Positions 11,812 through 64,000 of a stretch of 64,000 bases of DNA are shown here, in pieces. Made by a program: the position numbers and the translations under genes. Origin of the DNA: Norana najaformis. Lineage: Eukaryota; Annelida; Clitellata; Crassiclitellata; Hormogastridae. Location: positions 26,860,953 through 26,924,952 of the forward strand of contig OZ029916.1 of NCBI GenBank assembly GCA_964023275.1, read 5' to 3'. The notes beneath the pieces are model-generated. The model saw only the letters and a list, made by a program, of their open reading frames with translations. It was not told the origin of the DNA and did not search any database. The stretch's first letter is position 1. Each line of letters opens with the position of its first letter.

Positions 11812-12665
11812 ATTCGTTATCGTAATCGTAATTCCGAGATTTCTACAGCGCTCAACGAAAGCCACGTCACGGGGACCAGCTTATTCACAGGCGCTTAGTC
11901 AAACCAAAATCGATAGGCAAAAGGATTCGGTTCCAGGTCAAGATCCAAAAGTCAGGCAGAGAGACAGCGTGGCAGCTACGGTTGGTGGTGTTTGGGATTG
12001 GAGCAGAAAGAGAGACAAGAGGAAGAATGGGTGTCAGGATAGGATCTGTGAAAGGGGAATGCTTTAAGTTTTGAGTGGAAGGCCGATGCGGAAATTGTAA
12101 GCGGTTGAGTATAGATGAGTTTATATGATGGGTCAGATCACTGTCGCAGTTCTGGGGAAGTTTATTTCAGAGTGGTGGGGCAGCTATGGCTACGAAGCCA
12201 TTACCAAATTTTAAGGATGAGGTAACAGGCAGGCAGAGAAGTGTTAGGGCAGAACAGAAGCGGGTTGAGCGAAGTGGTTGTACTGTAGATAACTCACGAA
12301 GATAGGAAGGTTGGGAGGACTGAAATGTGTTGTAAATAAATGATAGGACTAAGTTGTACTCGATTCGTTCAGTTATTTTAAGCCAGTGTAGTGATTTAAG
12401 AACAGGAGTGATGTGATGGTTTTTGGGGGTTTTGGTGACAGCACGAGCAAAAGGATTATGTATGGCTTGAAGGCGGCTTATTTGGGTGGAGCCTATTTTC
12501 AGGACTAGTGAATTGCAATAGTCTACTTTAGCATGTACTACGGATGTGGCGATGGTTGATGCAGTTTTAAAGTCAAGCGTAGGGGGGATTCTGCGAAGGT
12601 CACGGATATGCATGAAGCGATGAATTATAACATTACACTGGCCGTGAAAGATGACCTGCATTCAA
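11812..12665 (-). mobile_element. L2-like LINE 3' part, family 1, copy B
   Basis: Minus-strand reading gives an open 164-residue stretch with FMHIRDLRRIPPTLDFKTAS, KVDYCNSLVL, HHITPVLKSLHWLKITERIE and SSQPSYLRELSTVQP, the C-terminal part of a LINE reverse transcriptase. Downstream is the family 3' module ending GCGCTGTAGAAATCTCGG and a tail of ATTACG repeats near 11815-11835. It is less decayed than copy A and in opposite orientation about 340 bp away. Confidence 0.85.
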
Positions 12666-21448: not shown

Positions 21449-21950
21449 AAAATACCTTTCTACCTTACCTTTTCTTAACTTTTTTTCTTAGCCATAACTT
21501 ACGTTATTTGATTTTCCCTTGCCTTAGCTTGCCCTGTCTTGCCCTACGTTACTTAACCTTTTCCTCAAATTGCCTTAGCTCAGCCCCCGCAGATTACTGA
21601 AGTGGGGCCTATTGGCCTGTTCGTACTTTGTCGAGCTCTGAGCGGGCCACCTCTTTTTCAGATTCTGACCAGGGCCCCGTCAGTTGCGGAAAATGCGGCT
21701 CATAGCTACGCTACCTGACCTACACTTTCTGAATCTTGTCTTGGTCTGATAAGAGGAGAAGAACAGTCGCTTAAGCTAACACTGACAGGCAGCCATTGGT
21801 ACGAAGTGCTAGCGATTCAATTTTTCACAGCCCCGGACTAAAAGGACGGGTGTCGAGTCCTTTCTCCAGGGCTGTAGGCTCGGTCTTGGCGTCTCGATCT
21901 CGAGACGGACCTACGATCTCGTCTCGGTCTCGTCTCGGACTGCAGACTGG

Positions 21951-32899: not shown

Positions 32900-35316
32900 A
32901 AGTCATATATTTCGTTGGTGCTGTAACATGCATTGTGATGATATTCCGTCATATTTTTTGCTGCTCTATTTTCTGAGTCAGTTGACCTTTTCGTGACCCC
33001 TGCACTTGTTGCTGTGCGGCGTGTTTACAGCCTGACTGACACCTATGGCCCTTAAATTCAGTTTTCTTTGAATCCTAAGTCAGCTTCATGCCGCCGCCGC
33101 CGCCGCCGTCTTAAGTTTTTATATCTGCAGCCGGTTACAGCGGCAGGAGTTGCCTCAGCTGCCGGGTGCTGCCCTGGCTGAAGACGGATGAAGATGAGGA
33201 GTAGGGGAGGGGAGAGAAAAGAGGATGTAACTTTAGTCAGGCAGCGGGTGCAAGAGGTCTTCAGTTACAAAATCCAATCCTGCGAGGTTTAATGATCTTT
33301 GGTAACAACTGGTTCAGTGCTATACGGTTGGTGACAAAAGTCTGCTGGCTGTCTGTTTGTCTGTCTCTCTGCATGTTTGGTTGCGTCTGCTCCGAGTGAC
33401 AGGAGTGGTGACAAAGCTAGAGGTGATGGTTGGCAGATGGACCTGCGCTGTCACCCCACCCCAAAGAGAGGGAGGGAGGGAGGCAGAGGTGGGTGAAAGA
33501 CTGAAAGTGTCAGCCTCGTCCTGTCTAACCCCGTGGGGGATTTATTGTGCGTTTTAATGGCTGCATGGGTGACTTCTGATCCCTGGGGTACCAGTTTAAT
33601 TAGCTGGTCCCACGCTTGACTAGGGAGTTGAAATTGGAGGCTGGCTTCAACCTTGCTTCTCAGGATTTTGCGTCTCTGTGATGGCGTTGAGAAGACATTT
33701 TACGAAATATGCCCCACGCTCGAATGTCCCAGCATCATATCTGAGCTTTATAATTGCCATCGTCTGTCTTATTAGTAACCTGGTTGCCATTCATTATCGA
33801 CTTTAACAGTTTCGTTTGCATTTATAAACCTAATTTGTTTCACTGAATAATAACTCATGCCTGTGTTTAACAGTGCTTGTTGTAAAATTAGAGTTCGGAA
33901 AGTGAAAATCCGATTTTTGGGCAAATCAGAGAATTCAGCTTAAACTTTTCAACTTTTGTGAATGTCTGGTCGCGGGCCACGACAGCCGATTGGATACAGC
34001 GCTCGTCATGTAATGTGGAGAGTAGGCCTAGAGGTCCGAGCATCTGCTAAGACGGTTACTGCATAGAGACCTTGGGCAAGTCCTTCACTCACAACTGCTC
34101 AGCGTCACCCATTGACGCTTAGTCATTAAACAGTGACGCTTCATAAATACAGAATATAATATTAGCAGTAGTAATAATAATAGTAATAGTAGCAGCAGTA
34201 GTCATAGTAGCAGCAGTAGCAACATTAGCCACGGTAATGGAAGTAACTTTAATACGGTATTTTAAAAAAAACGAGCAATAAAATGTTAGATTCAAAGAAC
34301 AATGGCGGCTGTTGATGACACCTCACAAGAAATCTGCATTACCTTACATTTTAGTGTGCAGTCTGCTGTGTAGTCTAAAGACGTTTTATCTAGGCAGGAA
34401 TTTAAAATCACTGTTTAACATCAGGTTCTCTGTATACATGGGACGTGGCTCATCAAGTGACTGAAATGCAATAAAAATCAGTCCGCGTTTCTTATAATAG
34501 GCACAATCACTCCGTCGTTATGGTTGTGTGTGTCGAACGTGACAAAGCATTTGAAGTAAAGCCCGCATGTTAAGTTGCTATTGATTTTTTAAATCTACAA
34601 TCGCCTCATAAATGGGCCTGTAGTGTTAAATTAGCGGGGCCTTTCTGATAGGCCCTATTATTATGCGGTAGCAGAACCTATTAAGTGATTTTCTCCAGTT
34701 TCTCTTTACACTTTGACGACATTTGCTACCATTTTCTAAACGCTGGTGCCCTGCCTTTTATAAAATCAGAGACTGATAAAGGCACTCCGTAATAATTGCC
34801 TGCTGTCGGATCATCGAGGGTTTTCCCTCCCTCCTTCGCTAAACAAACAACAACGTTCAAAACCACAAAGGTGTTAGATTTCGTTTATATCGACTTGCCG
34901 TTTGGCTGATACACCTATTGTGATAGATTATACCTTTCAGGTCTCTTTGTCCGGTTCGTGGCCGTTCTAAGCTTAACGATCAGTTCTGAACTAGCATCCG
35001 TGTGACTCCGAACTCACATGTCGTGCCAGATGCAGCATTGATTGTTCATGTAATAATGTGTGACAAACCATGTCATCTAATCTTTTGCGAGCAGGCCTCG
35101 CCGTATTGTATGCTAATCGCCGATGGTGTTTTGCAAGTGAGAGGCATTCGTAAAATTATTCGCTCTTGGCCGAAGCACATTGTCTCGTGAACTTGTGTCA
35201 TGGTATTGTTCGCTGTCATTTGACTGCAGAATCTCGCCGTGCGGAGAACTTAAGCGGGATTATCTGTGACGCTTCGATTTGGAGATTTCCGATTTCAAAG
35301 TAGAAACCAGACGACG
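32900..35316. other. Non-coding stretch, no gene seen
   Basis: Contains a CCG triplet run (33090-33108), a G-rich part (33190-33220, 33465-33485) and AGT/AGC triplets (34155-34215). If the middle gene starts near 18 kb this is intron; otherwise it is upstream DNA. Confidence 0.4.
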
Positions 35317-35415
35317 ATGTTGAGCGCGATGCCCTCTGGCGCCAGTTGCGCCTTTGTCGCGCAATTGGATGCTGCTGTCACGTCAAAACATTTGTCAAAC
35401 GTCGCACAGATTACG
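35317..35415 (+). other. Candidate first coding exon (33 codons), phase 0 donor
   Basis: ATG in ACGACGATGT, then MLSAMPSGASCAFVAQLDAA and on to VAQIT, ending at ACG with donor GTTAGT. The segment is GC-richer than its flanks (GCGCGATGCCCTCTGGCGCC) and a CRE-like GTGACGTAAC sits at about 35557. The phase fits the acceptor at 43715. It competes with candidates at 18 kb; no homology. Confidence 0.25.
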
Positions 35416-38400
35416 GTTAGTGGTAATCGGCTTCGGTGTCCGCGTGCTCATTGTCTAAACTTTTCTTGTCGAGAAGGTGACCGAAGACGAAATAAATTGT
35501 TTGTGTGTTCTGGGATTTTCGATTTGGCTCCATCGGAAATGCAACCTCTGTTTACGGTGACGTAACAATTACGCCTGGATCTATTCTTCTATCGAGGGTT
35601 TCGATGACTGAGTGTACAGGAATTTTGGAATCTCAGCATTTTAAAGTTTGTTTATTAGTTTTCCTGACAGGTGATGTAGGAGGAAGTCTCTCCGGCTGGA
35701 TACTGCGATATTCCTACAAAGTTACATCACTCTTGGAGATCAGATTGACAGGTGTCTGCTGTCTCTGATAAGACTGGTCTAGGTGTATACGCCCTTTGCT
35801 TTGGATATCCGTATCACACCATATCGTAAAAATTTCATGTTCAGGATGAAGGTAATGATTTATAACGACGATGATTACGATGACGACGATGTAGGATGAC
35901 TAAGAAAATGTTGATGATGATAAAGTAATTTACAAGTATGTAAGAGCGTTCCATTTCTGGTAGTTAAGTCTGGCGTACTTACATTTACAGTGATACGCTA
36001 GCGGATATTGAGCTGAACTGGAAATGCACCACTAGCAGATCAGCTAATGGTGCTATGATTAAATTTGTTGTCTTCAGGTGCTACCTTAATAAAACTGGCT
36101 TCTAAATGGTCTAGTCGACTTGGCCCAGAATTAAATGATAAACCTGCTGTGTGGATTCTGAACTGTTTGAAAATGTACAAAACTGCAGTTGGCAAATATC
36201 ATGTAATGTAACAAGCTGATAAAACTCAATATTCATCTCATAATGTAGAAAATTAGATAACTTTTTCACATGTAGCTCAGTGATAATTGTTCCAAGGTTC
36301 ACTGTTGTATTAAAACTGGAGAAATGAATCGTAGTGCTTCAAATGAAATTGGTTGTCTGTTGTGAAAAGGTTGAAAACCTGTAGTAAAAAGTTATCTACG
36401 GGTTACTATGGTTGCATCTGTGCTTCAGCTGAGATTGTTTAGTCATAAGACTCCATTTAAAGGACTATGGTTGATTATGATGCTATTGACATGATGTTTT
36501 GGTAAGATAGAGACTTGATGCTAACTGTAAAAAATGTAGTACTAACAACTTCTGACAGAATGTTATGACCGTGTGGATCATGACTGGATGATTGGTGGGA
36601 AGGATTATGATTAATAATATGATGCCGTTTAAGTACTTCTTTTGAAGCGTACTTAAAAGGTGCTATATAGATATTCAGATACACACATAAATACAGGGAC
36701 TATGCATTTACTTTGAAGCAACCCTTGATTGTGTTTTGATAATGGGGCTCACAAAATCTACAGATTAAATTAGACTCGATGCTTGGAGTAGTGTTTGATG
36801 GTACCATCAATTGATGGTTTATAGTTCCATTTGATTGTTATCCAAGTCAAAGTTGTATACTTTGGTTCAAAGATAACCTCTACTTCTCAGCTTCTCAGTT
36901 CAGATGTACTGAATATTTTTGTGCTTGTTTAAGTGCATCCTTTGAGTGCAAGTGGGTCATCTGCACTTTCTGGCACAGCTGCATCAGCTGCAACCAGTCC
37001 TGCATTAGAAATAATCATTATCTTAATCTCATCTAATCAACAGTCTTATATAGTGCCGGTATCATTACACACAAGGCATCAGTTAATGGTCACTTTGAAG
37101 TTAAATCACACAGTATGTATGTATCTAGCTCTTTATATAGCACCTTTTAAGAACCTCATGAAGTTGCTGTAATCATAGTTCTTTGGATGGAGCCAGTCAA
37201 AATCCAATTAGAAAAACATCAGTTTCATATCTATCCTATGCTAGCATAGATTTATGAGATCCTTAGCAGACACTGTATTAGGTATCTGATTACATACAAA
37301 CATACAGTGTCAGAAAACTGGTATAACAACAGAACTGGTAGCCTGACTTAGGAAACTGTGTGCCCAGGTATTTCGAATTCCGCTATAGCAAACCCAGTAT
37401 CACAAAACTCACCAAAGTGTGTGGTGATTGAGTAAAGTCTGGGGTTAGCAAGCAAGGGTGAGAGATAGGTTGGCTGACTCAAATGTGATACTGTCGGATC
37501 AATTTTAAACAGGAGCTAGTATTATTATGATTTTTGTACAAGGATGATTTGTTGACTTCTGAGGCTTTCATTTTGGCCCTTTAACACCTGTGACAAGTGA
37601 ATTACAATAATCAAGTTGACTAGAAATCAGCCAGTGAAGTCAAAACAGGTCGAGGTGTATGAGGTTTTATTTCACTCAAATACAAACATACTGTATCACC
37701 AGGTATAATGCTTTACTGCTTTCTTGGTGTGTGTTAACCACATACTACTGAGATACTGCAAAAGGATGTGGTATTTGCTTGCCCTAACACACCTAGTGTA
37801 CCGGTAGTGTGATGTAATGGTAAGGTAGTGCAATTTTTATATAGCATCCTTCAAGATAGCTGCTGGAAAGTTCTCCCACCCCTGTCCTGCCTGTTGAGTG
37901 CAAATATATCCAAAGTATTGGAAATTCAGTATATAATTCAATGTAATTCATTGCAATAAGGCTGTATTCATAGATGAACAATGCCAGTAGGGCTGTCTTC
38001 ACAAGTGAGCAATAGCACTAGGACTGTGTTCTTTGATGAGATAGCAATATGACTGCACTTTCATGTATGTCAACAACAGGTCTATAATCCTCAGATGAGC
38101 AACAGAAATGTCTTGATTGCTTAGAAAAACAGTAGGACTGAGCAATAACAATATTTCAGTTTTTTATTCATTCTGGCAGACATTTGAACAGTAAGATAGT
38201 CTTATAAATTGTTAGCCCACTGTCTTCAGGTTTCCCTGACTTTTTGGATTTCAACAAGGCTTCTTGAAGAGTTTAGGATTTTACTATGGTTTCAAATTAA
38301 ACGGCTGTCAATTGATGTCTCGTGCAGTAGGATAACAGTGCATAGAAGTAATTAGGTTACATTAGTTTGGATCCAGGATTTGACAGTCAGTGGGTGGTCA

Positions 38401-38480
38401 AAGTGGATTATACTTGCTATATTGCTGTAAAGAGATGATACTGCATAATGTAATACAATAAAATACAATACAACAAAACT
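35416..38480. other. Non-coding stretch with L2-like LINE tips
   Basis: No gene seen. Possible LINE 3' tips with TATATAGCA/TGCTATATAG lie at about 36660, 37133 and 37838. A degenerate tandem repeat is at 37955-38140. Confidence 0.4.
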
Positions 38481-38690
38481 AAAATTTGTTAATGCCCTCC
38501 TTACAAGTTCAGAAATGCACTTGTAGCCAGGTTATGTGAGGTATTAAGAACCATAAGCAGACTGGAAGAGGTAAGTTTTAAGGTTAGAGCGAAAGACAGC
38601 CTCAGTAGGAGAGTTGCAAACATAAGGAGGTAGAGAGCTCCAGATGGAGAGACCAGCAACTGTACACAAATGCATAGGTGCACGAGAATG
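38480..38690 (-). mobile_element. L2-like LINE reverse-transcriptase C-terminus
   Basis: The minus strand reads AGLSIWSSLPPYVCNSPTEA then VFRSNLKTYLFQSAYGS and a stop, the standard end of L2/CR1-type proteins (compare FWNSLPVSVRSAQ at 41650). Confidence 0.75.
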
Positions 38691-39739
38691 AAGCAGCCCG
38701 TAAATTGTAACTAGTGGTTTTTACCCTAAGGTACTGTATGGCCTAAACTGTGCGACTGCAAAATAATCTAAATATGTTTTGAGCCTTCTAAATGGCCAGT
38801 CCCATTACATCACATCACATTCCGTAAGAGTAATGCCGACTTGCTGGAGGAGAGGTGTATTTACAGGATAAGGATGTCTGTTTGTAGACCCCTTTTTTGA
38901 TATCATAGCCTTCAGGCTGTGTGATTTCATTACATATCCCTTCCTACCATTTATTTCCGTCATTTAGACATGACGTGTAGCTATTATAGCTCAATGACTG
39001 AATGCATTTCAATCAAATTAGCTAAACGTCACGGTGTGTGGGCCTGAGGTCGTATCGATCTGGTGACCCTGTTTGGAGCACGGATTTCATTGAAGAGGCG
39101 CAGGTGTGAGTTATTGAACTGTGTGGCCGTTGCTTGATGTGACGTCTGTTCGTCAGTCCATCGATCTGAAATGTCATGTCATCGCTGTACATTGTCAATT
39201 GTTTCCCCATGTGTCACCAACTGCTTCGCTGTCACGCCGTCCATTTCATCGTTGTCATCATCCTCTCAGTCAGTCCGACCTATTCCTCCGAAATTAAATG
39301 CGATGAATTGAATGAGAGAACACCTGGGAAAAACAGGACCACGACTACACAGGAGGTGGTGGTGGTTATTCGGTAAGAAATTAATCTTCAGGGAGATCTA
39401 GTGCAATCTTTTCACTCCTTCTATATATGAGGAAAACAGGAGAGCTTTGCTGAAGGATCAGGTGCAGATTCCAACTTTTTTGAAGCCTCCAGTGAGCAGA
39501 GTGGCTTAAGTGATATTAAGATGCTTTATCAGACTGCTAATGGGTTGCTGAGAGATTTTTTATCATCAGAGATGATCATCTCATTCATGTTATTCAGAGA
39601 AGCTCAGAACTTCGTCATTTATTTGGAAGGTGTATTAAGTGCAGTTGATAGGTTCCGTGGGGGCGTTCTAACACTCATGCATTTGTCTGGCATCTGGCAA
39701 GATCTGCTTGTCATATTCCCTAATTGTCTGGTCCGGCGG

Positions 39740-39880
39740 TTGGTCAGAGTATCTGTCTGTCTGGTTTCCTCTCTCTCTGACCTGCCTTCTGTCTGCCTTT
39801 CTGTCTGTGTGCCTACTTATCTGGCTTTCTTTCTGTCCATGTGCCTGTTTGCCTGCTTGCCTGTCCACTGTTGCATGTAT
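39740..39880. repeat. CTGT-rich low-complexity tract
   Basis: Repeats of TCTGTCTGT and TGCCTGCTTGCCTG. Open on both strands by composition only. Confidence 0.7.
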
Positions 39881-40374
39881 GCCTTGTATGGTCATAAATT
39901 TAACAGTTTTCTTTAGAATATTTGGTCTTTGTTTATAGCCATGACATCAAAATCGAGTGTGTTTTGCTTCATCAGTTTGTAAATCCCATCACTGTTTAGA
40001 TACATGACAACCAATGTCAAAAAATTGTTTGTATTTATAATCTGTCCCTGTTGGAATACGAAGATATCATCTATAGGAGTCAAGATCGCGCTGTTTGTCC
40101 CTGTTGTACACCTGAAGTCGTCCAAATAAATAACCCAGTTTTAATATAATTTTTATGCTTTTAAGTTGATTGCTCTTTTGAAATTGATATGTGGAATATT
40201 TTAACTACTGAGGAAATTCTACTGCATGAACTGTATAAATTCCACAGCTCTGGTAAAAAAATGGATGACGACACATGTACACCACACAAATAGATATATG
40301 TTTCAGGTGATTTCCAGGGTAATTTTTATGAAGAAGTTATCTTTCTCTTCATACCTATAGCTGATATAATATTA

Positions 40375-40395
40375 ATAATAATTATTATTTTTAAA

Positions 40396-40426
<31 letters not shown>

Positions 40427-40640
40427 TATTATAGTTCTTGCATATAGTTTGAAGAGCAAAGCCAAAGTTCCTTCATACAAAGTGCCTAACTTAGGCACAT
40501 CGGAATGGAGCAGACTGTCCTTCAGGACTTTATTGAAGCCCTGGCAGAGAGTGATATCGTATTATTATTAATTATTATTATTAATTATTATTATTATTGT
40601 TGTTGTTGTTATTATTATTAATTATTAATCAGACATTTAT
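40375..40640. repeat. (TTA)n microsatellites flanking a possible LINE tail
   Basis: TTA runs at 40378-40434 and 40560-40630 flank about 125 bp that has no coding signal. The arrangement resembles nested L2-like tails on the minus strand, but no protein remnant was confirmed. Confidence 0.5.
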
Positions 40641-41067
40641 ATTGCATTAATTAATGAATTGGTTTGAAGATGCTGTAGATTTTGAGTGTACTAGAGTATA
40701 ACTAACACCCATCACCTCATATCTGGCATTAGGAACATGCTGTTGCAGCTGCTGTTGCTGATGACGATGATTCTGGTTTCCCTGTTGCTATGTGTTATGT
40801 GTGCCAGAATAACCTAGTATTCCACGTGGAAGTTAAACATGGTCCTCTCTGAATGGCCCTATTATCAAGACTGCATACTGGGGATGAGGTCCGACCCTGC
40901 CCCTGTTGAGCTAGCTCTGAAGTTGACATTCAGCTAATGTTGATGCTGCAGTGACTTTCGGGTGACTTTCTTGTTACGAATGTTAGGAATCCACAGGCAG
41001 AAAAGATTTTTTTGCTTTTTATAGACCAGTTGGTTGTGGTAAAGTGGACTAGACCAAAGAGCGGTCG

Positions 41068-41100
41068 GACGGACGAACGGACGGACGGACGGACGGACTG
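41068..41100. repeat. (GGAC)n microsatellite
   Basis: About eight GGAC/GAAC tetramers, like the run at 17218-17275. Confidence 0.85.
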
Positions 41101-41589
41101 AGCGAGCAGCGCTGCAGGCTGTTTGTTTTGAAAGGAAGTTGGTCGGTCGACATGGTTAGTTTCATGACCAGAGGTGCCTATCATGAGGCCTGTCTTTTAG
41201 TGCCCTTTTATGATGTGTGGAGAAGACAGTGATCCTGATCCTAACCCAAGGCTACCTGGGATCAAAGACTGGATGAAGACTCAAAGGAACCTTTGGAGTT
41301 GTTCCCACTACATAACACAAGGCTCCTCCTCTGTATCTAACAGGTTTTGGGCATGCTCAACGGCCTGCATGTAGTCCATTTTGTTTCCGAGATAGCCAAG
41401 AAGGCAGCTGTGCCTACTGTACATTGCTGTGATGACTGATAGATGCCAGGCTTTCGGTGACTTGTTGAAAATTGCCCTGGAACATTATTTGCCTCTAGCA
41501 GATTATGAGCGCCAGAGACCTGAATAGGACTGTGTGGGATGTGCTGTTATTTAGATCTTCCATAACCTGCATCGGACTGACTGCTTATA

Positions 41590-41925
41590 AGCTTTGGTTA
41601 TGGTTGAACATGATTCTTGTCTTCTGTTATTATTTATTTACATGGATAAACGGGCTTTTTCAGTTGCTGGACCTAAATTTTGGAATTCCCTCCCTGTGTC
41701 TGTTCGTTCTGCTCAGTCGCTTTTGTCATTTCGTTCTCAACTTAAAACTTACATTTTTCAAATTGCTTATCCACTGTAGGCTGCCTCTCTGTCCTGTGGA
41801 CTGACCTTCTGGATATTGGCCTGATCGTGGCTTGGCTTTGGTGTGCCATCGGTTGATGCCTTGTGCATTAGACACCGGCGCATTAGAAGTTCTAATTATT
41901 ATTATTATTATTACTGTTAATCACA
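41590..41925 (+). mobile_element. L2-like LINE 3' end
   Basis: Plus-strand frame ends DKRAFSVAGPKFWNSLPVSV then SFRSQLKTYIFQIAYPL and a stop at 41779, followed by a 3' segment closing with GGCGCATTAGAAGTTCTAAT and an ATT repeat. This is the best-kept LINE tail in the window and shows the family terminus clearly. Confidence 0.85.
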
Positions 41926-41929
41926 AGAT

Positions 41930-42125
41930 CTCGACTGTTAATTGGTGTGGATCTTGATCAACAGCTGTTATCTTGCTTGACTGTAATCTTATTACTTGTT
42001 ACCTTGATTACTGTGATCTTATGCTCTGTCGTCGTGATTGACTGTGATCTTCGTTATCTTTGACTGTGATTCACTCTGATCTGTAGTCGCTCAGTCTATG
42101 ATCTCTTTGTTTAGACTGTTCGTTC
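41930..42125. repeat. Degenerate tandem repeat around TTGACTGTGATCTT
   Basis: At least six diverged copies of a 25-30-bp unit: CTTGACTGTAATCTTATT, CTTGATTACTGTGATCTTA, GTGATTGACTGTGATCTTC, CTTTGACTGTGATTCACTC. Confidence 0.6.
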
Positions 42126-42599
42126 TTTGGCATCTGTTAGCGTCTGCGTGATGCCTTCCTAGTACATGTTTGTTTGGTCTGGTGTCTTTAGCTTCTCATA
42201 GTAAACTTTAGATCATCTTATCTTGACTGATTGCAGTCACACAGCCTGAATCAGAAGGTCATCCCGTGGCTACCGGAAGTCGGTCTGCCTTTTTACCAAG
42301 TGGGTGGAGTTGAGATGATGATCAGCCAACCACATTTGACATCTGCTCTAATTGGCCAGTAGCTGCTTAACTTTAATGTTGTTTGCTATAGCATCAGAAG
42401 GCAATGCATAAATTAAAGTGAATTTAAATGCAGTGCTTGTGATTAAATGATTTCAGATACTCTGTTTAAATAACGAATTTCATTTTGGAATGGGTTATCA
42501 AGAAACTTAAGACTAGGACTTGTGAGTCTTCCCTGTATTTATTCTATTGAAGGCTGAAATCATCTTGTTCAATGGTAGATTGGTGTTGGGTCAGAAACA

Positions 42600-42690
42600 C
42601 TGCTGCTTAAGGAGTTTCTTGACATGGTGCTATATAAATGTTCAATATTAAATTGCATTACATCACATTACATTCAATTTTTATACTGAT
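42600..42690 (+). mobile_element. L2-like LINE 3' tip with ATTAC tail
   Basis: TTTCTTGACATGGTGCTATA then TAAATGTTCAATATTAAATTG and pentamer/decamer ATTACATCAC repeats. Only the tip remains. Confidence 0.5.
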
Positions 42691-43714
42691 TTAATGTAAT
42701 CAAGAAGGTTGGCAACAGAAGTCTTTAGCAATTTCACTTTCTTGGCCTCTGCATGAGAACTATGTAAGTGGTCAGCCCTCTCCAGTCTTATCTGTTATTG
42801 AATGTTGATACTTGTCACTTGATACTTGATACTTGCCAAACAGGAATTCTGAAGTCTTTTTGATGTGTGATTTCAAAGTGTTCAGAGGAAGCTCAGATAG
42901 CAAACAATCTGCCATCTTCTTTTGACACAGTTGCAGATTGCTAATGTATTTGGCTATCAGTGCATGAGTCCAGCACTAGAAAAGTTTCAGGATGCTTAAT
43001 ATAAAACTGACAGATCACTGTGAAGTTATGTAACATATAAGGAAAGTTTGTAAGGGTGATGGAATGGATTGCAGTTGCCGTGCAAGCTGCAGTAGCCTTC
43101 AGCAGAACACTGGTGGAAGAGAAATCTTAAAATATGTGTCTATTCTGGCTGAGATTAGAGGACCCAACCTCAAGATCTAGGTTGACCGTACAGCTGCTAA
43201 CCACTGAACAGCCGCATACCCGCATGTTAGGTGATGTGTGTAATGTGTAATAATTGAGCATTTACTTTGTCTTACCTTACCTTATGTAGGTATGTATCGA
43301 TATACTTACCTGGTGATATAGCACCTTCTGGTATAGCCATTTTCTAAGTACCTGTCAAAAGTGCAGCACACATGGCTATCTAACTGTTCTAAACAAGTAT
43401 GTTTTAAAATAGTTTTGAAATGTATGCTGAACAGAGTCAAATGCAACAGTATGCATATACGATGGAAGCCTGTGTCAAGATAAAGGGAAAGTCTTCCTTT
43501 AGACTTTATACTTGTCATTTGTCTGAAATGCCTTTGAAAGTTGCATGAAAGGGTGTACATAAATCTCCAGTTACATAATAAATACATCAGGCTACATTTC
43601 ATATTACAGGTGTCAGGAATTGTCAGTTCTGTCACTTGGCTACTTTGCCACTGTGCGCTCAGGCCAGTGTGTGTTGATGGTTTATGTCTATTTGTTATTG
43701 TTTGTTCATTGCAG

Positions 43715-46700
43715 GTCTCTGCACAAGATACTTTTGAGGAAGTTCTTGGTTGGTATGGTCTAAGGCCATACACACAGTTCACTGATCGGTGTGCTGAGGT
43801 CAGTCCAATGGACACGGCCAGCACCGGATCTGTCATCACGAGGGACACGGCCTCAGCTACAAGGGACACAGCTTCTGTTGTGAGCAGGGACAGCTCGGTC
43901 GAAGATGGAGACATCGAAGTAGATGGAGATCATCCCGTTGATCTGACCAGCGTGGCACCCGTGTTATCATCCTCTGCAGCTGACCAGGGAACCATATGTG
44001 AGCATTCTGATAAATTCTTGCTTACCTAACAGGTCTTTGCAGTCATAGTTATTCCTGGCAAAGTATTTTTATACTACAGCCTCTAAAAACTAACGCAGAT
44101 ATTTATCATTTGTATTAATGTTACTCTATGTTAGTTTATTTGCAGATGATGAAAAAATTATGTGCTAGTAAGTAAGTTAGTAAGTATGCAAATGAAACTT
44201 GAGTTATTACTGTAATCATTACAAAAATTTGTAATACGGCAAAGTCACACAGAAATGTGAATGTGGAGGCATGGTGAACCCAACAATAACCCCATCAGGT
44301 AAATGTTGGGCATTAGCTGTCGAATGAGCTACATCATATCTTCAGATTGCTCATGTTTTACAGCCTATCTTCTAGTCTCTAGGGCCTCGTGAATCTCAAC
44401 TGGTTTCAGTCTGAGGATTATGATTTCGGAATGCTGTTTTTTTGCTTAGAAGCAGTCATGGATTGATGCCTAAGTATGTTACGATAGTGGTGCTATAGAA
44501 GTTTCAGGATTGGATTAGGTCAGCAGTAGCAGTAGTTGCAGCAGTAGAAGCAGCAACTGCTAATTAAATATCGTTAAGCATTATCAGTCCACTTCAATGT
44601 CATCAATCTATCATAATCATCAACATGATTTATTTATTTTATTTACTGCACTTAATATGCATCCCAGGTCAGTAAAGGTGAATCTGAGGTATGAGACAAG
44701 AGCGTCAGGGGTCGTTAACAACCTGTAGCAGAATTGGACAATGAGTCAACCGAATGACAAACCAAGAATTCAAACCAACTGAACAGTGGTGTAAGGTGTG
44801 GGCAAGACCATGTAGCCATTTTCCATTTGATGAGTAGCCTTAAAGTTCAGTGACTGCTATTTTGTATGAACAGCGGATGTGCTTAAGATGCAGTGGGGAA
44901 GTCACAAGAAGCTGGTTGGCATCCGATTCCTCTTTCCTCCGCTGGATGAACAGATGAGCCTTCTGGAAAAGGCCAAGATCTGGGTTGCCCGACATGACTA
45001 CAAGTACTTTGTGGACTGGACGGAAGCTGAACTGGAAAGCATCGATCCCATCCTCCGACCCCTTTCCATCATCACCCGAGACATCTACAAACTACACATG
45101 AACAGGTGCGAAATCGATTTCTACACTTAACTAGACTAGCTGTATCTACCACACACTGATATTCATTAGTAAACTGGATGTCTTGGCAAACATGGAACAG
45201 GTGGCTTTGGTAAATAAAGAAGGGGTTGCCTTGGTAAACAAGGAGCAGGTTGTCTTGGTAAAGACAGTACAGGTTGTCTTAGTACATGTAAAAATGGAAG
45301 GGTTGTCTTCCTAAATAAGGAAACGTTTATCTTGGTGAACCAGTTGTCAGGTGGTTTAGACTGTCAGTGAAGATATCAGTGCACTGATACCAATGGAATT
45401 GGATTGGCCTTATGATGAGAGTGGCAATGGGTGATGATGAAGATGATAAAAGTATTGGTGATGAGTAGAGTGTTGGGGTTGGAGTGGTGGTGATGACTAT
45501 GATGATGATAGTTGCACAAGTGTTTTGATGTTGGTGATGGTGGTGGTGATGGTGATATGGAATATATCTATTGCCAAGAAAGAATTCCTGGCATCGTAAA
45601 ACATCACAAGGATCTGCTGAGTCTTCTGCGCTTAGAATGATACAATTTATGTGTTTGAGAAAGACACGAGAAGAATATTGTTGATGAAAGTGCTCCTTGT
45701 CTGAGGCCTTTGCAACAATGTAAGCAGACATCACACTAGAAAAGCAGCCACTGAGAAGCGGACTGAGAGAAACAACACAGCACATAACATCAGCCAGACA
45801 GACGGACAGACAGACAGAGAGGCAGGCAAACAGAGAGGCAGGTAGGTAGACATGGAGGCAGGCAGACGGACAGCAAATAGATAAACAGACAAAAGCAGGA
45901 TACACAGACACTGAGGGCAGAGCATATGGAGACTGACAAGCAGGAAAACAGCCAGGCAGGGCAAGCAGATACACAGGCAGGCAGTGAGGGAAAATGATAA
46001 TGATATGCAGGGGGGCAATCAGACAGACCTGTGGCAGTTACAAAGTTAAACATACATGCAGACAAGTAGAAGGCTGGCAAATAGGCAGGTAGACGGACTG
46101 TTATGCAAACAGGCAGAAAGGCTTGTTGTCAGAAGTTTAGGGTGTTGCCTGATAAATGCATTATAGGTAGTGGCTACACAGAAGTCACACGGTTGATATA
46201 GGTTACATTACGTTGTATGAAATTAACAGATGATCTTATGACAGTGTCTTTGTTTTGACTGTCCTTGTAAGAGTTACAGCAGATTTTGTGATACAGTAAT
46301 AAACTTGACATTGATGCTATTGTCTGTGACGTGGCCAGTGACAGTGAAGCTGCCGTGATATTTTCAGGCTATCTTTAAAATAATGTTGTGACAGTTGCAC
46401 TGGCACTGCAGTTTCTGTGACACTTGTATAGCAATCTGTTGTGAGTGTTAAGCTGTGACGTTAGTCTGCGCTGAAACTGTCACAACTTTTGTTAAAGCAA
46501 TTGCAAAACTGTTTTGACATTTTCTATCAATTTTTTTGACAGTTTTCTCTTTTAAAAGCAGTCTAGTCTAGACTTGTCACATTAACGTCATAATGTCACT
46601 GTGTTGTTTGTTTGTAGGAGTGAGTATTGTCGTAATGTAAAGCTGAAGTACTGCTTGCAGTCTGATGCATCCTGGGCTCAGCAGTTTCGGGAGAATCTGG

Positions 46701-49700
46701 CAAAATCCTCCACTGAGGGTGGATTTACTGGTGAGAGACAAATTAGAAACAGGCCGTTCACAGTTTGCAGACGTATGATCAAGCATCTGATTTAAACTTA
46801 GGGCTAAGTAGGTGGCTTCACCTGCTAAATTTAGCCGAGTTTGATCCTTTGGCAAGTTGTTTACGCGCAGTCGTCTTAGGTTTAAATCTTGTAATTTGGT
46901 AGCTGCCACATACATGTACAAGACCTGTGATCAGGACTTTGCTCAGGTGTTAGGAAAAGGAAATGAGCACTATACCTATACTTTGCTTGAATCAACTATA
47001 TGCAGCATATGTACATCTTTCGTTCACCAAACTGATGCAAAAACACAGAAAAACATTTATTTTATATAAATATATTTATTATGATATGTAAATATTAAAT
47101 ATCATCAGTTTTCTTTTCATTGTTATAGAAATTGCGCCATAGCACTATGTTCTGATTGTTATTTTTCCTGCAACATTTTGTAGTCTGAAAAGCACTGGCA
47201 GGTCATCGCTTATATTAATAATTTCTGTGGTAAGGTTCTCTTGAAGCTTTGTGCTGTTTGGTTGCAGGTCTTTGTCAGGCCAAGATTGTAGCTGCTGAGC
47301 TGTGGCGTAAATATAGTGAACATTACCGCAGTCACCAGGCTCGACACCCAAATCTACGTAATCGCGATGCCAAGGTTGCTAATACAAAGGGTGCCATGGG
47401 AAATACAAAGAATGAGCAGTGCATAACATTGTCTGGACCATGCTACGATGCACTCTGCACAGACTCAGATGCACTATCAGAAGATGGAGAAAGGGAGAGT
47501 GATGGAAAGCCAACCATCAGGGACGATTTAGGAACAGTGCAGAGGTCAAGTGCTATGGAGGATGTGGATGAAAGGAAGGATGGGGTCCTGAGAGAAGATG
47601 AAGGTGTACCGGATGACAATGAAGAAGATATTTGCAACACAAGAGAAGTCGCTGATGATAGGTCAAAGAGACATAAACCAACAACAGACTTTGAAGAACC
47701 AAGTTGTAAGAAAATGAAAGAAGAAATGCCTCACAAAGTACTTGACTCAAGAACTTCTGATCGTTTTGAGGAAAATGTTGCAAGCAGTCAATGTCATTCA
47801 TCAAATGACTGCTCTGCGGTTATTAATCTTACAAAAAAGATCTTAGATGAGTCAGAAAAAAAGCAGAACAACAACTTTGCAACAAGAATATCATCGCCCT
47901 CAGAAGCCAGTGTAAAATCTGAAGTGAACCGAGATGCAGATGCCAAGTCCAGCCTGAGACGTGCAACACCTACCAGTGCCATGCCCTACTGGAATGTCTC
48001 GCAAATCGGACCCTTGATGTACCAGTTGCCAATGGCTGCATATTATACCAATCCAATGTCCTGCTTCTTGGATTCTTCTTTAAACTCACCAGGACTCCAC
48101 CACCCGATCTACCCCTTTGGCTCGGCCTCTCAGAACTTTGCTTCTTCTGCTTCTAGTCTGGACAACATGGCACCTCTCAAGAAGTCTTCCAAGATGCGCA
48201 GCAGCAGCCGAAATGAAATGAACACAGAGTATCGTCGGTCAGAGAGGGGACTTTCCTTCTTATTTCCAAGCTTTTCTGACCACAACATGTCACTGATGGA
48301 TAAAGTCCAGATTACTATAACACGTCACAAAAACAACTATTTTCTGGGATGGGATGAGGCTGCGCTTGAGAAGCTTGATCCACTTGTTCGACCAAAGATG
48401 GTTGTGACACCAGAGATCTATAAGGAATACTGTCATCGTAATGCTATGAAGTATGACTCAAACCTCCAATTTGCAATGGAATCAACAGAACCATGGGCAC
48501 AGGATTTTCGCAAGAAACTATCACTTCCGGCTAGCGAGGGTGGCTTTACGAGTCTATGCGAGGTAAAACTCGAAGCTGGCAGACTTTGGCGCGAATATTC
48601 TGGCAAATATCGCATGCACAACATTGTGAAGTGGCAGATGGACCTGAATAGCAATACGGTTCCAGCAAAGCCTCCAGGTGTTGGGCTGGCCTCAGAGACC
48701 AGGTGTAACAAATTTGGATTTAGAAAAATCCAGCGACGAACTCGCGTGAAGGACCAGCGTATGTCGATTCAGAGAAGCCTGCCTTCTCTGCAGAATGGCA
48801 GTTTGATGTCGATGCAGAATGGAAGCTCACCATCACCTCACAATGGTGGTCACTCCTGCACACAGAACGCTCGTGCTTTTGAACATTTGCGGAAGGGTTC
48901 GAGCCATAGCAGTCCTCTCGCCAGATCATTTTCTGAGGGCGCATCTCCAAGGGTGTTCTCACAAAGTGATGCTCCTCCCAGTGACATGTGCCGTGTTTCA
49001 CGTTCCCTTGACAACTCTCCATCCATGGGAGGCAGCTGTGATGGAACTGCCTCTTCTGCTTCTGTGGCTGGGGACACTGGCTGCAGCCTGACTATGATGC
49101 CATCACCAAAGGCAGCAGTGGCACCAAGACATGTAGAATCCTCTAACGACTTTCTCTTTGTGCCTTTGCCACGGCAAATGCCTGTGGCACAGCAACTCTT
49201 TGTGTGGCTTGAGCGTCATAACAACAACTACTTCCTTGGGTTTCCCAAGGAAACCCTGGCATCTCTTCACTCGTACCTCCGGCCGCAGGTAGTTGTAACA
49301 CAGGACGTATTCCAGCGTCATATACCGGAGAGCATGGTGGACGTACTTGGCAAAATCAAGTGGATGATGTCATCAACTGAAGACTGGGCCATCAAGTTCT
49401 GTGAGCGATTGGCAAAGAACCAGAAAGATGGAGGATTTTCAACATTTGAGGAGGCCCTGACAGAGGCTGTGGTGCTTTGGCATATCAACAAAGATAGGAG
49501 ACCACCAGAGAGATTATTGACAGTGAGCAGTTCCAAGAGTACGGGCATCGATTTAAAGGCTGAGATCAGAAAACAGTCACACAAAGACGATGATTCTCAT
49601 TCAAAAGTTGCCATTACAAATGCACAGGACTCATCCTGGAGTCCAGTCAGCCATCAAGAATGCGATCATCTTTCTAAAGAGTTGGATGCTTCAGCAAAGC

Positions 49701-50062
49701 CAAAGCCTCTGCTGACTAAAGAGGATGGCGAGTCAGAAGATGCCATTTGTGTGAAATCGGTGCTGTCAGAGAGCGGAGGTGATGCTGCTGCGGCTGTGTG
49801 CAGCCCTAACTTGAGACAATCTCAGGAGGTCAGTCTTGGATCTCTGCTACAGCTGCTGTGGAATTTACGCCAGGCACTGCATTTGCTGTGCCAGGACAAT
49901 GCGGCCGAGAGCTGGCAGCAGAGACTGACGCCATTTCTTTCAGTCCTGCAGCGAGTCGTCGGTGCCAGTTATGTGGCACCGAGCACCAGTTCTTCATGCA
50001 TCGTTGACCTCGTCATGGCTGTGATGCACAGGCATCTTGAAGAATTCTTCTCAGACTCTTAG
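43715..50062 (+). CDS. Large unrecognised protein with three copies of a ~120-residue domain (start codon not found)
   Basis: Exons by splice sites and phase: 43715-43997, 44874-45105, 46618-46730, 47268-50062 (stop TAG); 1,140 codons. A first exon is missing because the 43715 acceptor opens in phase 0 without ATG. Residues are counted from 43715. Copy 1 (~110-233, three exons), copy 2 (~538-662) and copy 3 (~836-955) share FLFP/FVPLP, RHxxxYFxxW/F, LRPxxxxT, WAxxF, GGFxS and a final LW. Exon 1 has EVLGWYGLRPY and short RDTAS repeats. Linkers are serine-rich, with KRHK...KKMK (possible nuclear signal), a basic KIQRRTRVKDQR and QNGS repeats. The C-terminus is predicted helical (LLQLLWNLRQALHLLC). 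I do not recognise the family. The domain pattern could suit a protein-binding helical module; nuclear location is inference only. Confidence 0.85.
44215..44295. repeat. Dispersed repeat, copy 1 (pair with 51665-51740)
   Basis: TTACAAAAATTTGTAATACG, GGCAAAGTCACACAGAAATG and GGAGGCATGGTGA match 51665-51740 in the same order and orientation. It lies in intron 1 of the triplicated-domain gene. Identity unknown. Confidence 0.5.
45177..45345. repeat. Intronic degenerate minisatellite, about seven units
   Basis: Units of 24-29 bp such as CTTGGTAAACAAGGAGCAGG, CTTGGTAAAGACAGTACAGG and CTTTGGTAAATAAAGAAGGG. It lies in the intron that splits domain copy 1. Confidence 0.7.
45410..46110. repeat. GATGGTG-rich and CAGA/CAGG-rich low-complexity tracts
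   Basis: 45410-45560 is rich in GATGATGAT and GGTGGTGATGG. 45785-46110 is rich in CAGACAGAC and GGCAGGCAG. Both are intronic; the long minus-strand open frames over them are artefacts. Confidence 0.75.
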
Positions 50063-56594: not shown

Positions 56595-56744
56595 CCGAAT
56601 ACGATGCAGAATCTGTTCAATCTTCAGAGCCGTTGAAGCGGAGAAATACTGAGCAAAAACAGACAGATTTACGACTAGGTGTACGCCAACTGCAGTCATC
56701 TTCTACAGCTGATCATCTGCGATTGTTTGAACAGATTCTGAGCC

Positions 56745-59700
56745 ATGGTCGACAGCATCTACCGAACGCGTTCGCTGGGAGTGGCGGCGGAGGGAATCCC
56801 GGACCAGTACGCCGACGGTAAAGCGGCCAGGGTCTGGGAGGTCTACATCGGGTCGAAGCAGAGCAGGACGGATCATTACCGTAACTGGATCGTCTCGCTG
56901 CTGACCGACAGAGGCTGCAAGAACATTCTGGACGTTGCCTGTGGAACTGGGTAAGAAACGGTCGGCCCTACTGATCCACCCAATGCCCATCCTATGGCTA
57001 CCTCCCACTCTTCCCTCTGTCCCAGTGGTTAGATTGCTCATCCAGATGTGATGGATCTCCAGATTTTTGCAAATCTAAAACCGAAGCCTAGGTCTGTGTA
57101 TTATATGTGACGAGTCTATAACATTTATTCACTATTCAAATAAAACATGAAATGCATGAAACACGCACGATGCATATCATCAATTAATTAGGCCTATTGT
57201 AACAAAAAAACACATTTAGTCTAGGCCTACTGAAAAGCATTAAATAACATATTAAAAAAACTGCTTAGATCGAAATGTCAAGCTTGATAACTTACAACAA
57301 TGCATAGGCCTAACTACAAAATACAATATGGATTTTGTTTGGCGGATCTCCAGCTTTAGATGACGGGATCTCAGCCTGTAGGTGGCGGATCTCATAGTTC
57401 AGATGGCGGATCTCAAATCAGAGGTGCCGAATGGATCTCAGGTCCGACAGAATCTGGCTAAATTTAACTCCTGCTATGTCCCATGCCCACTTTCGAAGCA
57501 TCCCCAACCGGTCCTATTTTCCATCCTTGCTTCCTTGTGTCCTAACTTAGCCTACTTAAAAGGCTACTTTCATCCTTCGGATCCTTTGCATTCTTTTTTC
57601 TTTTCGTTGTTCATCTTGAAAGTAACCTTCATTTCAAAGCCAAATATCACTTTTAGGCCTAATTCTCGCCCCAAACCAGAGCCGGATTAACCAACATTGC
57701 AGAATATGTCCAATGCATGGACCCTCAACGACAGAAGTTCCTTCTACCACTAACCAGAATAATTTCTCATGCAGATAAAGTCGTTCAGCAAAGACTCCGA
57801 TGGTATCATGGTTTGGTCATTTGGACGAAATGCCAACTAACCGAATCCCAACCAATGCATTATTGCAATGCAAGATGTGAAGGAAAGAGAAGCAAATGAA
57901 TACAATAACTGCGCTGGATAGACAATGTAAGCAGGACTTGGACTAAATGAGAACAGCACTTAATTTGACTTAATATTACTTAGGCCTAATAACCGAAAAA
58001 GTGGAGATCGCCCATCGAAGCCAGACGGTTAGCGTCAGGAACCGATTGATGATGATGACGACGACGATGATGATAATAATAATAAATAAATCCTGAGGGA
58101 TAATAAGTACCTCGGGTAAAAACACAATAATGGTGGTGGTGATGATGATGATGATGATGATGATATGCCAGTATCATAGGGCATAAAATATTTAATATTA
58201 GGCTTTTGGAAACTGCCCAAGCCTTTGGGCTTGCCCTGAAGGTAGCATGGAGAACAGGGCGTCTGCTAAAGCCATTTGGTTTAACGGTTGGCTCATGGTC
58301 GTTTGGTCTGAAGCAAACGATTTTTATGAAGCGCGTTAAGGCGCAAATGCAATTATTTCAGTTGAACGGAATTCGTCATGAAAGGCTTAAGAATTCTGGC
58401 GAATGTTAACCCTTGAACTCCAGATCGCATCGAAAAGGACTGCGGGGCGGTAGTCGATCGAAAAGAAATCAATTTGTAGGCCTATAGTAACGAACTGTTG
58501 CCCACTGCGATTAGCCGCCACGCTGTCTCTCTGCCTGACTTTTGGATCTTGACCAGGAACCGAACCTTTTTATCTATTGATTCTGTTTTGACTGAGCGCC
58601 TGTGAATAAGCTGGTTCCCGCGGCGCGGCTTTCGTTGGGCGCTGTGGAAATCTGGGAATTACGATTACGGTTCTACAGAAAGGTCAAGAGAAAGAAATTC
58701 TTTGCCCTGAAACAACGCCAACTGTCCGATACGTACGACAACTCACGGGTCCCACGGGGTCTGACTCCTCGAGTGAATCGACTTTATCGTGTATGCCAAC
58801 GTGCGAGGTATTCTTAAAATTCAGTCAGTTAGCTGATGCCGCGTGGGTAAGGCCAGTAAAGAATAGGCCTAACATGATTGATATGTTAATGAACTGTCTT
58901 TGTGACTAATTGTGAGATGTGAATATAGATGCTGAGTGAATATTATAAGTGTTTTCATTTATAACTGAAACATAGCAGTAATTGTACAACTTATTACAAA
59001 ATCATTCTATTTCTACAATCCGTCCAGTAGGCCTATAGGCCTATGTTAATTCAAAGTGTGCGGTTTCTGTTGGCACTGCCAGGGCAACTCACCCTTTTGT
59101 AGATTAGGCCTCTAGCTAATGCACTGTGGTTCTTCGACGCCAAAACAATCTTGCTTGCAACCGCTGAGCAACCGAAGTTCAGAAAGTCCAAAGAATGTCC
59201 AAATAAACAAGTAAATCAAGTCACAGTCGACGGACTTTATCAGGACTTGGTTCAACAGGAAAAACTAACAGACCTAGGCCTACAGGCGCATTTCTGAAGC
59301 TCAATTCGCCACCTTTAGACACACACGTGCGATTATTTGCATTTGCGAGCTGACAACATGGTTCACCCAGTTATCCTGCCCAACATCGATGAACAGTTAC
59401 TTGAAAGTCTAGGCGATATTAAGTAATTTGTGAGCGTCCACCATGGTATGATGTGTTCAGTGATAGCAGATTTTGCGCAGTTATGGGCATAAAGCTTAGA
59501 TATGTAGTCGTGTCCTGTGAATAAGCCTATAGGTCTAAGTTTTAAAATGTGTAGGACTACAATTTTCCCCCTACATATATAACTCAATTAATTCGGGAAT
59601 TTTCTGTTTGAATTATTTTACATGTACAGTCCGTGAAAGGGGACCTTAAATGGCCTGGTTCTCTTTCTAACGGGCAGCGGTGGTAATGGATCTCCCCCTA

Positions 59701-62700
59701 TTAATTCACTTAAATATGAGCAGAGTCGAGTCCATACGGTCACTATAGAAAAACGTGTAGGCCTACATTTACATTTACTTTGACATCTGCACTCGAGAGT
59801 CGAGACGTTAACTGCATTGAACTGAAGTGCAAACCTGCACTGAGCAAACGTATAATTAGTCACATCAGTGCACAACTTTTTCACATAATGTATATCTTAA
59901 TTAGGCTTATGGACCTATTTTTAGGCCTAATGCAGGCCTATTACGATTCAATGACTGACACCTGCACTCGCGAGTCAACCAAGATGTTGACTTCATTGAA
60001 CGGAGATGCAAACCTGCATTAAGCTGACGTAGTCATCAGTCACATCAGTCCTCAACACTTTCACAGACATGCATGCATGCGTTTGAACTCTAGATTATCA
60101 GCCAGAAGTATTGGGGTGAACGTGTTGGACGGGAGTCGGTGAACGCAATTACTACACCTCGCTCCGGCTCTAAACACTTCCTCGATCTCCTCGTGTACCT
60201 GCTCAGTCAGTCAGTCAGTCAGTCAGTCTGTCTGTCTGTCTGTCTGTAGGCAGGCAGACAGCTAGACAGACTGTCTGAGACAGACAGACAGTCTGTCTCA
60301 GACAGTCTGTCTAGCTGTCTGCCTGCCTACCTGCCTGCCTTTCTGTCTGTCTTGCAGAGATTAAACGTCCATCTAACTTCGTTTCAATATTTAGGCGAAA
60401 CGCGGTCCGTCAAGTATAGCTCACGTCCGTTCCTCCCCCACTACCCTAAATCCGCTGCTGTTCACAACTTTCACATAATGATTTGCAGAAAAGTGTATGC
60501 AATTTATTTACTATAGTTGCGAGGTCAAACATTTGTAATCAATGAGTGTAAGTGATTTTTATACCGTCATGGTTGTTTGGCGATCTGATGCAACATTTGG
60601 AACATCTGACATCATTCTTAATTTGCAAGCCTCTGCATCAAACCACATCTGCTCAAATAAATAATTTGTTTTGAAGTTGCGTCAATGCTGTAGCAATAAT
60701 TGTTGTGCTAGTTTTTCAATCAGCCACCTGGTGGTTGTAATATCTCAAGATGCGCCTATAGATGTATCATCACTCAGCTGCTATCCTGACACCCCCTCTT
60801 CCTCTTGTCTCTCTCTCTTCTCCAACCCCAAACACCCCCACTCCGTAGCTGCCGCTGTCTCTTCGTCTGACTTTTGGATCTTGACCTTGAACCGAACCCT
60901 TTTGCCTATCGATTTTGTTTTGACTGAGCACCTGTGAATAAGCTGGTCCCGGCAGCGCGGCTTTCGGTGGGCGCTGTAGAAATCTCGGAATTATGATTAC
61001 GATTACGATAGGCGGTGTGTCTTTAGTCTATGACACAATGTTTCATAATGATGATGATGACGACGACGACGATGATGATGATGAAAACAATAATAATAAA
61101 CTCAAAAACTCTTAGATTAACTCTAGTCCAAGATGGCATTTCTCAGCACAATGACTCCAAGCGCAAACACCCTAGATGAGGTGGTAGACGAGGCCTTTGT
61201 TCGCCTCGACGGTCTTAAGTTCTGCGCGGTCCTTGGTTCAGAGATCGAAAAGCAGAAGGTGACTGCCGAACAGTTCTACGACGAGGATGCTGCGCCTCGG
61301 CACCACCGCAACCGCAGCCTACTCTGGTCTGAAGCAGCGCCCATCCTCAATGCAACCCTCGAGACGCAATCGCAGAAGCGAAAGCGCAGCTGCTTCGGTA
61401 GGCCTACTTAGGGAAGTTCGTTGATGAGTTATCAGGCTGGAGGTTTAGGCGAGTTGTGGCGCAGGATTTTGGAATAGCTCAGACCTTGTCGGAAAGAGGC
61501 CGGGAAAGAAAGGAATCAGATATTTGAGTTAGAAAGGACCAGACTCACTGAGGGATACTGTTTATAAACTTTTAAGGAAGCCATAGAGTTGGCATTTGCG
61601 GCAGATCAGATACTGCGCATCCATTTTAAAACCTCTTTGACCTGGCTTCAAATCCAGAGTTGCGCTTGTGAAACTGGTAGCAGATTCTGCAGGCTTGCTT
61701 TGACTGCAGGGGCCTCTTCTTAGACAATGACCATTGAAGGTTTCTCCGATCAAATCACCCTTTTGCCCCACCTCTGCTTTGCGTACATCTGTGACGTTCG
61801 CAGAATCTGCCTTATGCATGACTTTAAAACCATGTCTACCATAGTACATGCTAAACTGGACTACTACAATTAACTTTCTGAAAGTTAACACCTTCCACCG
61901 TGGCTGTATGACCGGCTACCTGCCTGATCCATGGATCTTGCATGACCTGGAACATAATATGACCTTACCTGCCTATCGATTTTGTTTTGACTGAGCGCGT
62001 GTGAATAAGATGGTTCTCTCAACTTAGATTTCTTTGAGTGTTGTAGAAATTACGATTATGATTATAATTGGCCTTCAGAGGAGATAGACACCCCGGTTTG
62101 GTAATGGTAGGCTAATTTTTAACTGTGGTCTCCCTCCAGGTATTATGGCTATTGTAAAAGATCACATTACTTGGATAAGGATGGATTTTTTCTATACTCC
62201 AGTATCGAAGGAATTATTATGTTGCAGGATAGATTTGATTTGTAGCAGTATGAATATTATTACAGTCCAGGATGGTTTGAATTTTTGCTGAATTTGATAA
62301 TTTTGCAAACTGATGTTTTAATATTGATTTGATTAGACTGCAGGACCGATTTGATCATTTTTATAGTGGATTTGATTACTATATTACAGAATGGAGTTGA
62401 TATAATACTGCAGGCTAAATTTAATGTTAAATAGTGGATTTATGCAGCAGAGTTGATTGAGTTTAACATTATGTAAAATCTTGCAAATTCAGAGTAGTTT
62501 GCATGTAGATAGAATTATGTTGTAGGGTGGATTCAGTAATGTTGCTGGAGCAGGGATTCAATGTAACAAGTACTGATGCCAGTGACAAGATGCTCAAGTA
62601 TGCTCTAAAGGAAAGATGGATCCGCCGAAAAGAAGAAGCTTTTGACAAATGGAGTATGTAATGCTAAAGACATTTTAGTAAGACAAAACTTCTGTCAGTT

Positions 62701-63817: not shown

Positions 63818-64000
63818 GTGAGTATAAAATAAAATAAACTAAAACAGAATATCTGTTTCAACGAAACTGCATCAGGTGGTGGTCTCTACCCATGTGATAA
63901 AGCATCCACAGTCTGGGCACTGAAAGCAAATTATCATCACTATAAACGACTAGGTGTTTTGAGATAAAACTTTTTTGTGCAACTTCTCCACAAAGGCATA

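Follow-up and report, generated by a model that had tools for sequence, protein, structure and literature searches.

A threefold module, unnamed in the family and structure libraries searched, in a spliced gene of the annelid Norana najaformis

We analysed a stretch of 64,000 nucleotides from the annelid Norana najaformis (contig OZ029916.1; the whole stretch is called the window below) and describe a spliced gene on its forward strand whose predicted protein carries three copies of a module of about 120 residues. The module is real and old, and it is unnamed in the family and structure libraries that we searched. It plausibly represents a new protein family, the searches having covered Pfam, the PDB and viral and prokaryotic collections rather than eukaryotic ones. 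The anatomy of the gene, namely a spliced gene with three module copies and linkers, is close to certain.

Three module copies in one spliced gene

Searching the predicted protein with a profile of all three copies gave matches at residues 111-233, 538-661 and 837-953 and at no fourth place. Using BLASTP, copies 1 and 2 align with 43% identity (2e-40), copies 1 and 3 with 35% (1e-24) and copies 2 and 3 with 31% (3e-20), so that copy 3 is the most divergent of the three. Smith-Waterman scores for the same pairs, in this order, were 296, 191 and 164 compared with shuffle maxima of 53, 53 and 58, and none of 2000 shuffles reached the real score for any of the three pairs. Pairwise comparison, shuffles and profile are all in agreement with an earlier note on this DNA, which had proposed a domain of about 120 residues present three times in one protein. 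Across the three copies 23 alignment columns are invariant and include FLF, RH...YF, RP....T, S...WA..F...L, GGF and LW. The ordered motif pattern given in the earlier note is thus found in all three copies as far as this invariant core is concerned, while the proline of its FLFP occurs in two copies and the last serine of its GGFxS in one, the observed variants being GGFTG, GGFTS and GGFST. Low complexity as the source of the likeness was dropped, given that the residues W, F, Y, L, I, M and V make up 35-39% of the modules and the copies align over their whole length.

Synonymous sites are saturated between the copies, with proportions of synonymous differences of 0.78-0.83 that allow no finite estimate of synonymous divergence, compared with nonsynonymous divergence values of 0.51-0.75. 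Identical residues are often encoded by different codons (33/53 between copies 1 and 2, 18/35 between copies 2 and 3 and 20/38 between copies 1 and 3). With synonymous sites saturated and the protein sequence nonetheless kept, the coding sequences indicate that the copies are old and that their protein sequence is under selection. This backs the claim of an ancient internal duplication. Two introns, of phases 2 and 1, interrupt copy 1, and a single unbroken exon of 2.8 kb contains copies 2 and 3; introns inside copy 1 only imply that they were either gained in copy 1 or lost from copies 2 and 3.

The four exons (Table 1) join as one frame of 1140 codons on the forward strand with a stop codon at its end, and the introns between them (43998-44873, 45106-46617 and 46731-47267) are all of the GT-AG type. 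The limits 43715 and 50062 of the earlier note proved correct, the former lying directly after an AG acceptor and the latter closing the stop codon. Exon D lies in an open frame that runs for 942 codons from position 47234. In the coding scan no other listed stretch scored as high (184, with 90 for the runner-up); this ranking rests on few training sequences, the exons of this gene among them, and on a listing that excluded the minisatellite region 21800-25400. Exon C was missing from that listing. The first forward-strand AATAAA after the stop codon is found at 51076, in a window that holds 89 such hexamers compared with 60 expected by chance.

Exon A begins in phase 0. No ATG precedes the acceptor in its open frame, which leaves either a missing 5' coding exon or a start at the internal ATG at 43808. 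The former, with at least one coding exon missing upstream, is likelier. A search for 5' exons by codon score and stop-through Pfam scans found none; the stop-through scan of 25403-43702 on the forward strand gave nothing above cut-off, its one row being that for MCP1_SIFV described below, with the region from about 12 to 25.4 kb lying outside that scan.

Search for relatives and predicted fold

We compared the gene with the 24,736 models of Pfam-A, taking a score above the curated cut-off as the criterion. None of the four exon frames matched a family above cut-off (exon A gave sub-cut-off rows for Cadherin_4 at 0.29 and EGF_Tenascin at 0.69), and none of the three module copies produced a single row at E values up to 10. 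Likewise, the module consensus, both linkers, the C-terminus and exon A gave nothing above cut-off, with rows at 0.11 and 0.25. This supports the statement of the earlier note that the module can be linked to no named family. The row at 0.11 stems from residues 39-100 of the consensus, which score weakly against the archaeal Nop5/56-related N-terminal domain (PF21572; 13.3 bits with a cut-off of 27.8); as the score is sub-cut-off and no single copy matches, we treat it as chance. Among PDB sequences, the best profile row was a beta-glycosidase at E 0.24, the C-terminus and exon A reached 0.67 and 1.1, respectively, and the 942-residue frame had no match at E up to 1.

Copies 2 and 3 were folded using AlphaFold2; copy 1, split over three exons, was left out. 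The resulting models have mean predicted local distance difference test (pLDDT) values of 91.4 and 89.3 and predicted template modelling scores of 0.82 and 0.77 for copies 2 and 3, respectively, the weakest of the five models reaching 70 and 68. The input was a very thin alignment of five window-derived rows, and since each model's alignment includes the other copy, the two models are not independent. Predicted helices cover residues 15-27, 36-40, 54-60, 63-77, 81-91 and 102-123 in copy 2 and residues 13-25, 34-37, 52-58, 62-75, 79-89 and 100-117 in copy 3. According to these confident models, both copies would share a six-helix arrangement in which order and spacing are nearly alike. The structural comparison suggested by the earlier note was thus achieved in part: helix order and spacing agree for copies 2 and 3, judged by helix limits and not by superposition, with copy 1 outside the comparison. 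In copy 2 numbering, we infer from the model that T53 and S78 lie directly before helices 54-60 and 81-91 and that G97-G98-F99 lies directly before the last helix. The conserved residues look mostly like core, helix-start and turn positions, in addition to an Arg-His pair and an Arg-Pro.

Both models were compared with 350,542 PDB chains using Foldseek with significance set at E <= 0.001. None of the 27 rows for copy 2 and none of the 10 rows for copy 3 reached this level, and the best TM-scores by query were 0.29 and 0.27. For the viral folds of BFVD, copy 2 gave no row at E <= 0.001 (0/75) among the matches listed (50 of 75). Further collections yielded rows that we take as chance, namely PHROGs rows at 0.037, 0.044 and 0.28 and a PADLOC row (Csf3-Csf1) at 0.038, each from one of the three copies, while NCBIfam, searched with consensus and C-terminus, returned one row at 0.12, for the C-terminus, that was not usable. 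Pattern scans produced 1 and 63 matches in two scans of IMG/VR and 43 in GTDB genomes, none of them relatives. The lack of relatives in viral or prokaryotic collections is expected because this is an animal gene. Rfam gave no matches on the window, and module peptide strings gave none in the open-licence literature.

In the genome itself, a six-frame search of 608,420,607 bases on 17 contigs matched the modules to this gene only, below E 0.1, and the C-terminus and exon A likewise to this gene only, at E up to 1. As this search scored only the best candidates, a strongly diverged paralogue could escape it. Other contigs held five weak matches, with E values of 0.76 to 5.0, that were set aside: three of them aligned only loosely, each with a single copy, and were attributed to chance, and the remaining two produced no alignment at E up to 1.

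Possible function and competing explanations

In the four regions outside the modules 13-19% of residues are serine, compared with 5-8% in the modules, as the earlier note had indicated in describing the linkers as serine-rich. Exon A contains PVDLT, a PxDLS-like short motif of the kind expected in a CtBP-binding adaptor, and linker 1-2 carries a second, looser CtBP-like motif, VINLTKK. According to PMC11187106, one PxDLS-like motif is enough for CtBP to bind. The possible nuclear signal of the earlier note is reflected in a few short basic runs, though not in a long classical signal.

On this basis, we tentatively propose a nuclear adaptor in which the modules bind protein partners and linker motifs bring in a corepressor such as CtBP. 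The modules most likely bind protein partners since they are near neutral (net charges +2, +1 and 0) and their conserved residues are mostly of the core, helix-start and turn type, plus the Arg-His pair and Arg-Pro; near-neutral charge speaks for protein binding over DNA binding. Three partners might be bound at a time. The CtBP-like motifs and basic runs in the linkers suggest a nuclear adaptor role: the protein would work in the nucleus as an adaptor or scaffold, and its CtBP-like motifs would recruit CtBP or another corepressor to the partners of the modules. Several observations weigh against this proposal. The pattern P.DL[ST] occurs in 4.6% of 20,000 linker shuffles and that of VINLTKK in 3.9% of shuffled linkers, the latter figure being generous as the pattern was picked post hoc. 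No long classical nuclear signal was found with the patterns tried. Further, with the 5' end of the gene probably incomplete, the protein may have an additional N-terminal domain that would alter this interpretation. A more far-reaching form of the adaptor proposal, in which a domain family with a helical fold unrepresented among solved structures was triplicated early and now forms a three-site platform in a single-copy animal nuclear protein recruiting CtBP, seems doubtful to us.

About equally likely as the CtBP adaptor, and likewise tentative, is the explanation that the module belongs to a known family of helical domains but has diverged too far for sequence profiles or Foldseek against the PDB to pick it up; it would then function like the other members. 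Small helical folds are easily missed by profile and Foldseek searches, the profile used here rests on three copies from one gene, and structures were compared by one aligner, Foldseek, against the PDB and BFVD only. Against this stand the consistently negative results reported above, with no Pfam row for any copy, a sub-cut-off best row for the consensus, no PDB profile row below 0.24 and no significant Foldseek row for either model, both having low best TM-scores. If the modules were instead DNA-binding domains, the protein would be a sequence-specific regulator. The basic runs would fit such a role, and the DNA-binding proteins SopB, CENP-B and HK97 small terminase appear among the Foldseek rows of copy 2; however, these rows have E values of 2.6-9.8 and probabilities of at most 0.08, which amounts to noise, none of the three proteins recurs among the rows of copy 3, and the modules lack a marked charge. 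We therefore consider DNA binding quite unlikely.

An unlikely explanation, too, is a cytoplasmic or membrane-linked signalling scaffold without a nuclear role, in which the short motifs are present by chance. Long serine-rich linkers generally also fit kinase-regulated scaffolds, and the support from the CtBP motifs is weak, as the shuffles indicate; yet nothing specific for such a role was found, and the CtBP-like motifs, like the basic runs, weakly favour a nuclear role instead. That the gene encodes a domesticated or live transposon protein is very improbable. Its surroundings do hold repeats and stretches that we take to resemble old retroelements, but the gene has introns, occupies one place in 608 Mb and gave no transposase or reverse transcriptase profile in the Pfam scans.

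Genomic surroundings and closest known systems

The upstream neighbour is the C-terminal part of a MELK-type kinase gene (853-6583), and the downstream neighbour is a glycine N-methyltransferase gene with exons on the forward strand (56742-63829). MELK, an animal kinase, and the intron structure both indicate animal DNA. Between the exons of the latter, 61130-61390 is an open stretch with a good coding score and no Pfam row at 0.1. A GC-rich minisatellite at 21961-25192 comprises 97.9 copies of a 33-bp unit with 97% matches and is overlapped by open frames of more than 1100 codons on both strands. The three open stretches in the last rows of Table 1 presumably resemble the end of a non-long-terminal-repeat reverse transcriptase. 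A Pfam row for MCP1_SIFV, a filamentous archaeal virus capsid model, at 31303-31569 (+) is most likely due to chance (E 0.0049; 17 bits with a cut-off of 27).

Table 1. Features of the window and the evidence on which they are based.
Feature	Position	Strand	Evidence and remarks
Exon A, first exon recognised	43715..43997	+	acceptor ...cattgcag, donor ATAT/gtgagc; coding score 22.9
PVDLT, PxDLS-like motif (CtBP-binding type), in exon A	43934..43948	+	pattern scan
Exon B, first half of module copy 1	44874..45105	+	splice sites, frame; coding score 22.4
Exon C, middle of module copy 1	46618..46730	+	splice sites, frame
Exon D, end of copy 1, copies 2 and 3, C-terminus, stop	47268..50062	+	open frame; coding score 184
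Module copy 1, three pieces plus intron-split codons	44918-45103, 46619-46729, 47270-47338 (span 44918..47338)	+	
Linker 1-2, 304 residues, polar	47339..48250	+	basic runs KRHK (47666-47677), KKMK (47708-47719); no Pfam row
VINLTKK, looser CtBP-like motif, in linker 1-2	47819..47839	+	pattern scan
Module copy 2, 124 residues	48251..48622	+	sequence comparison; AlphaFold2 model
Linker 2-3, 175 residues, 19% serine	48623..49147	+	basic run RRTR (48734-48745); no Pfam row
Module copy 3, 119 residues	49148..49504	+	sequence comparison; AlphaFold2 model
C-terminal region, 185 residues, hydrophobic stretch near end	49505..50059	+	no Pfam row
UBA_MELK	853-1131		Pfam E 2.6e-18
Open frame of 481 codons in MELK-type region	1547-2989		no Pfam row at 0.1
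KA1 domain	near 6455-6583		Pfam E 1.1e-12
Glycine N-methyltransferase exon	56742-56945	+	best E 2.7e-28
Glycine N-methyltransferase exon	63524-63829	+	best E 1.3e-29
Open stretch	4581-5060	-	no Pfam row at 0.1
Open stretch	12170-12661	-	no Pfam row at 0.1
Open stretch	10860-11221	+	no row at 0.01 in stop-through Pfam scan

In conclusion, the module lends itself well to structural study and to naming as a domain, as a high-confidence prediction was obtained from five window-derived rows, yet no Foldseek match to solved structures was found. If orthologues exist in other animals, the gene would offer a handle on a regulator without a Pfam domain; if it is restricted to one lineage, it would illustrate how a conserved domain in several copies can arise within a lineage. 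With regard to known systems, the NOL4 family comprises nuclear animal proteins with helical parts and linkers. Pfam presumably holds models for NOL4, but the Pfam scans of our protein gave no NOL4 row. RAI2 is a disordered protein with two CtBP-binding motifs, as described in PMC11187106, and resembles our protein in carrying two CtBP-type short motifs outside folded domains. This is a likeness in short motifs. PMC11187106 presents RAI2 as lacking folded domain structure, with two ALDLS motifs joined by a 21-residue linker, whereas three modules, of which copies 2 and 3 were modelled as folded, make up part of the protein described here, and its PVDLT and VINLTKK motifs start 320 residues apart.
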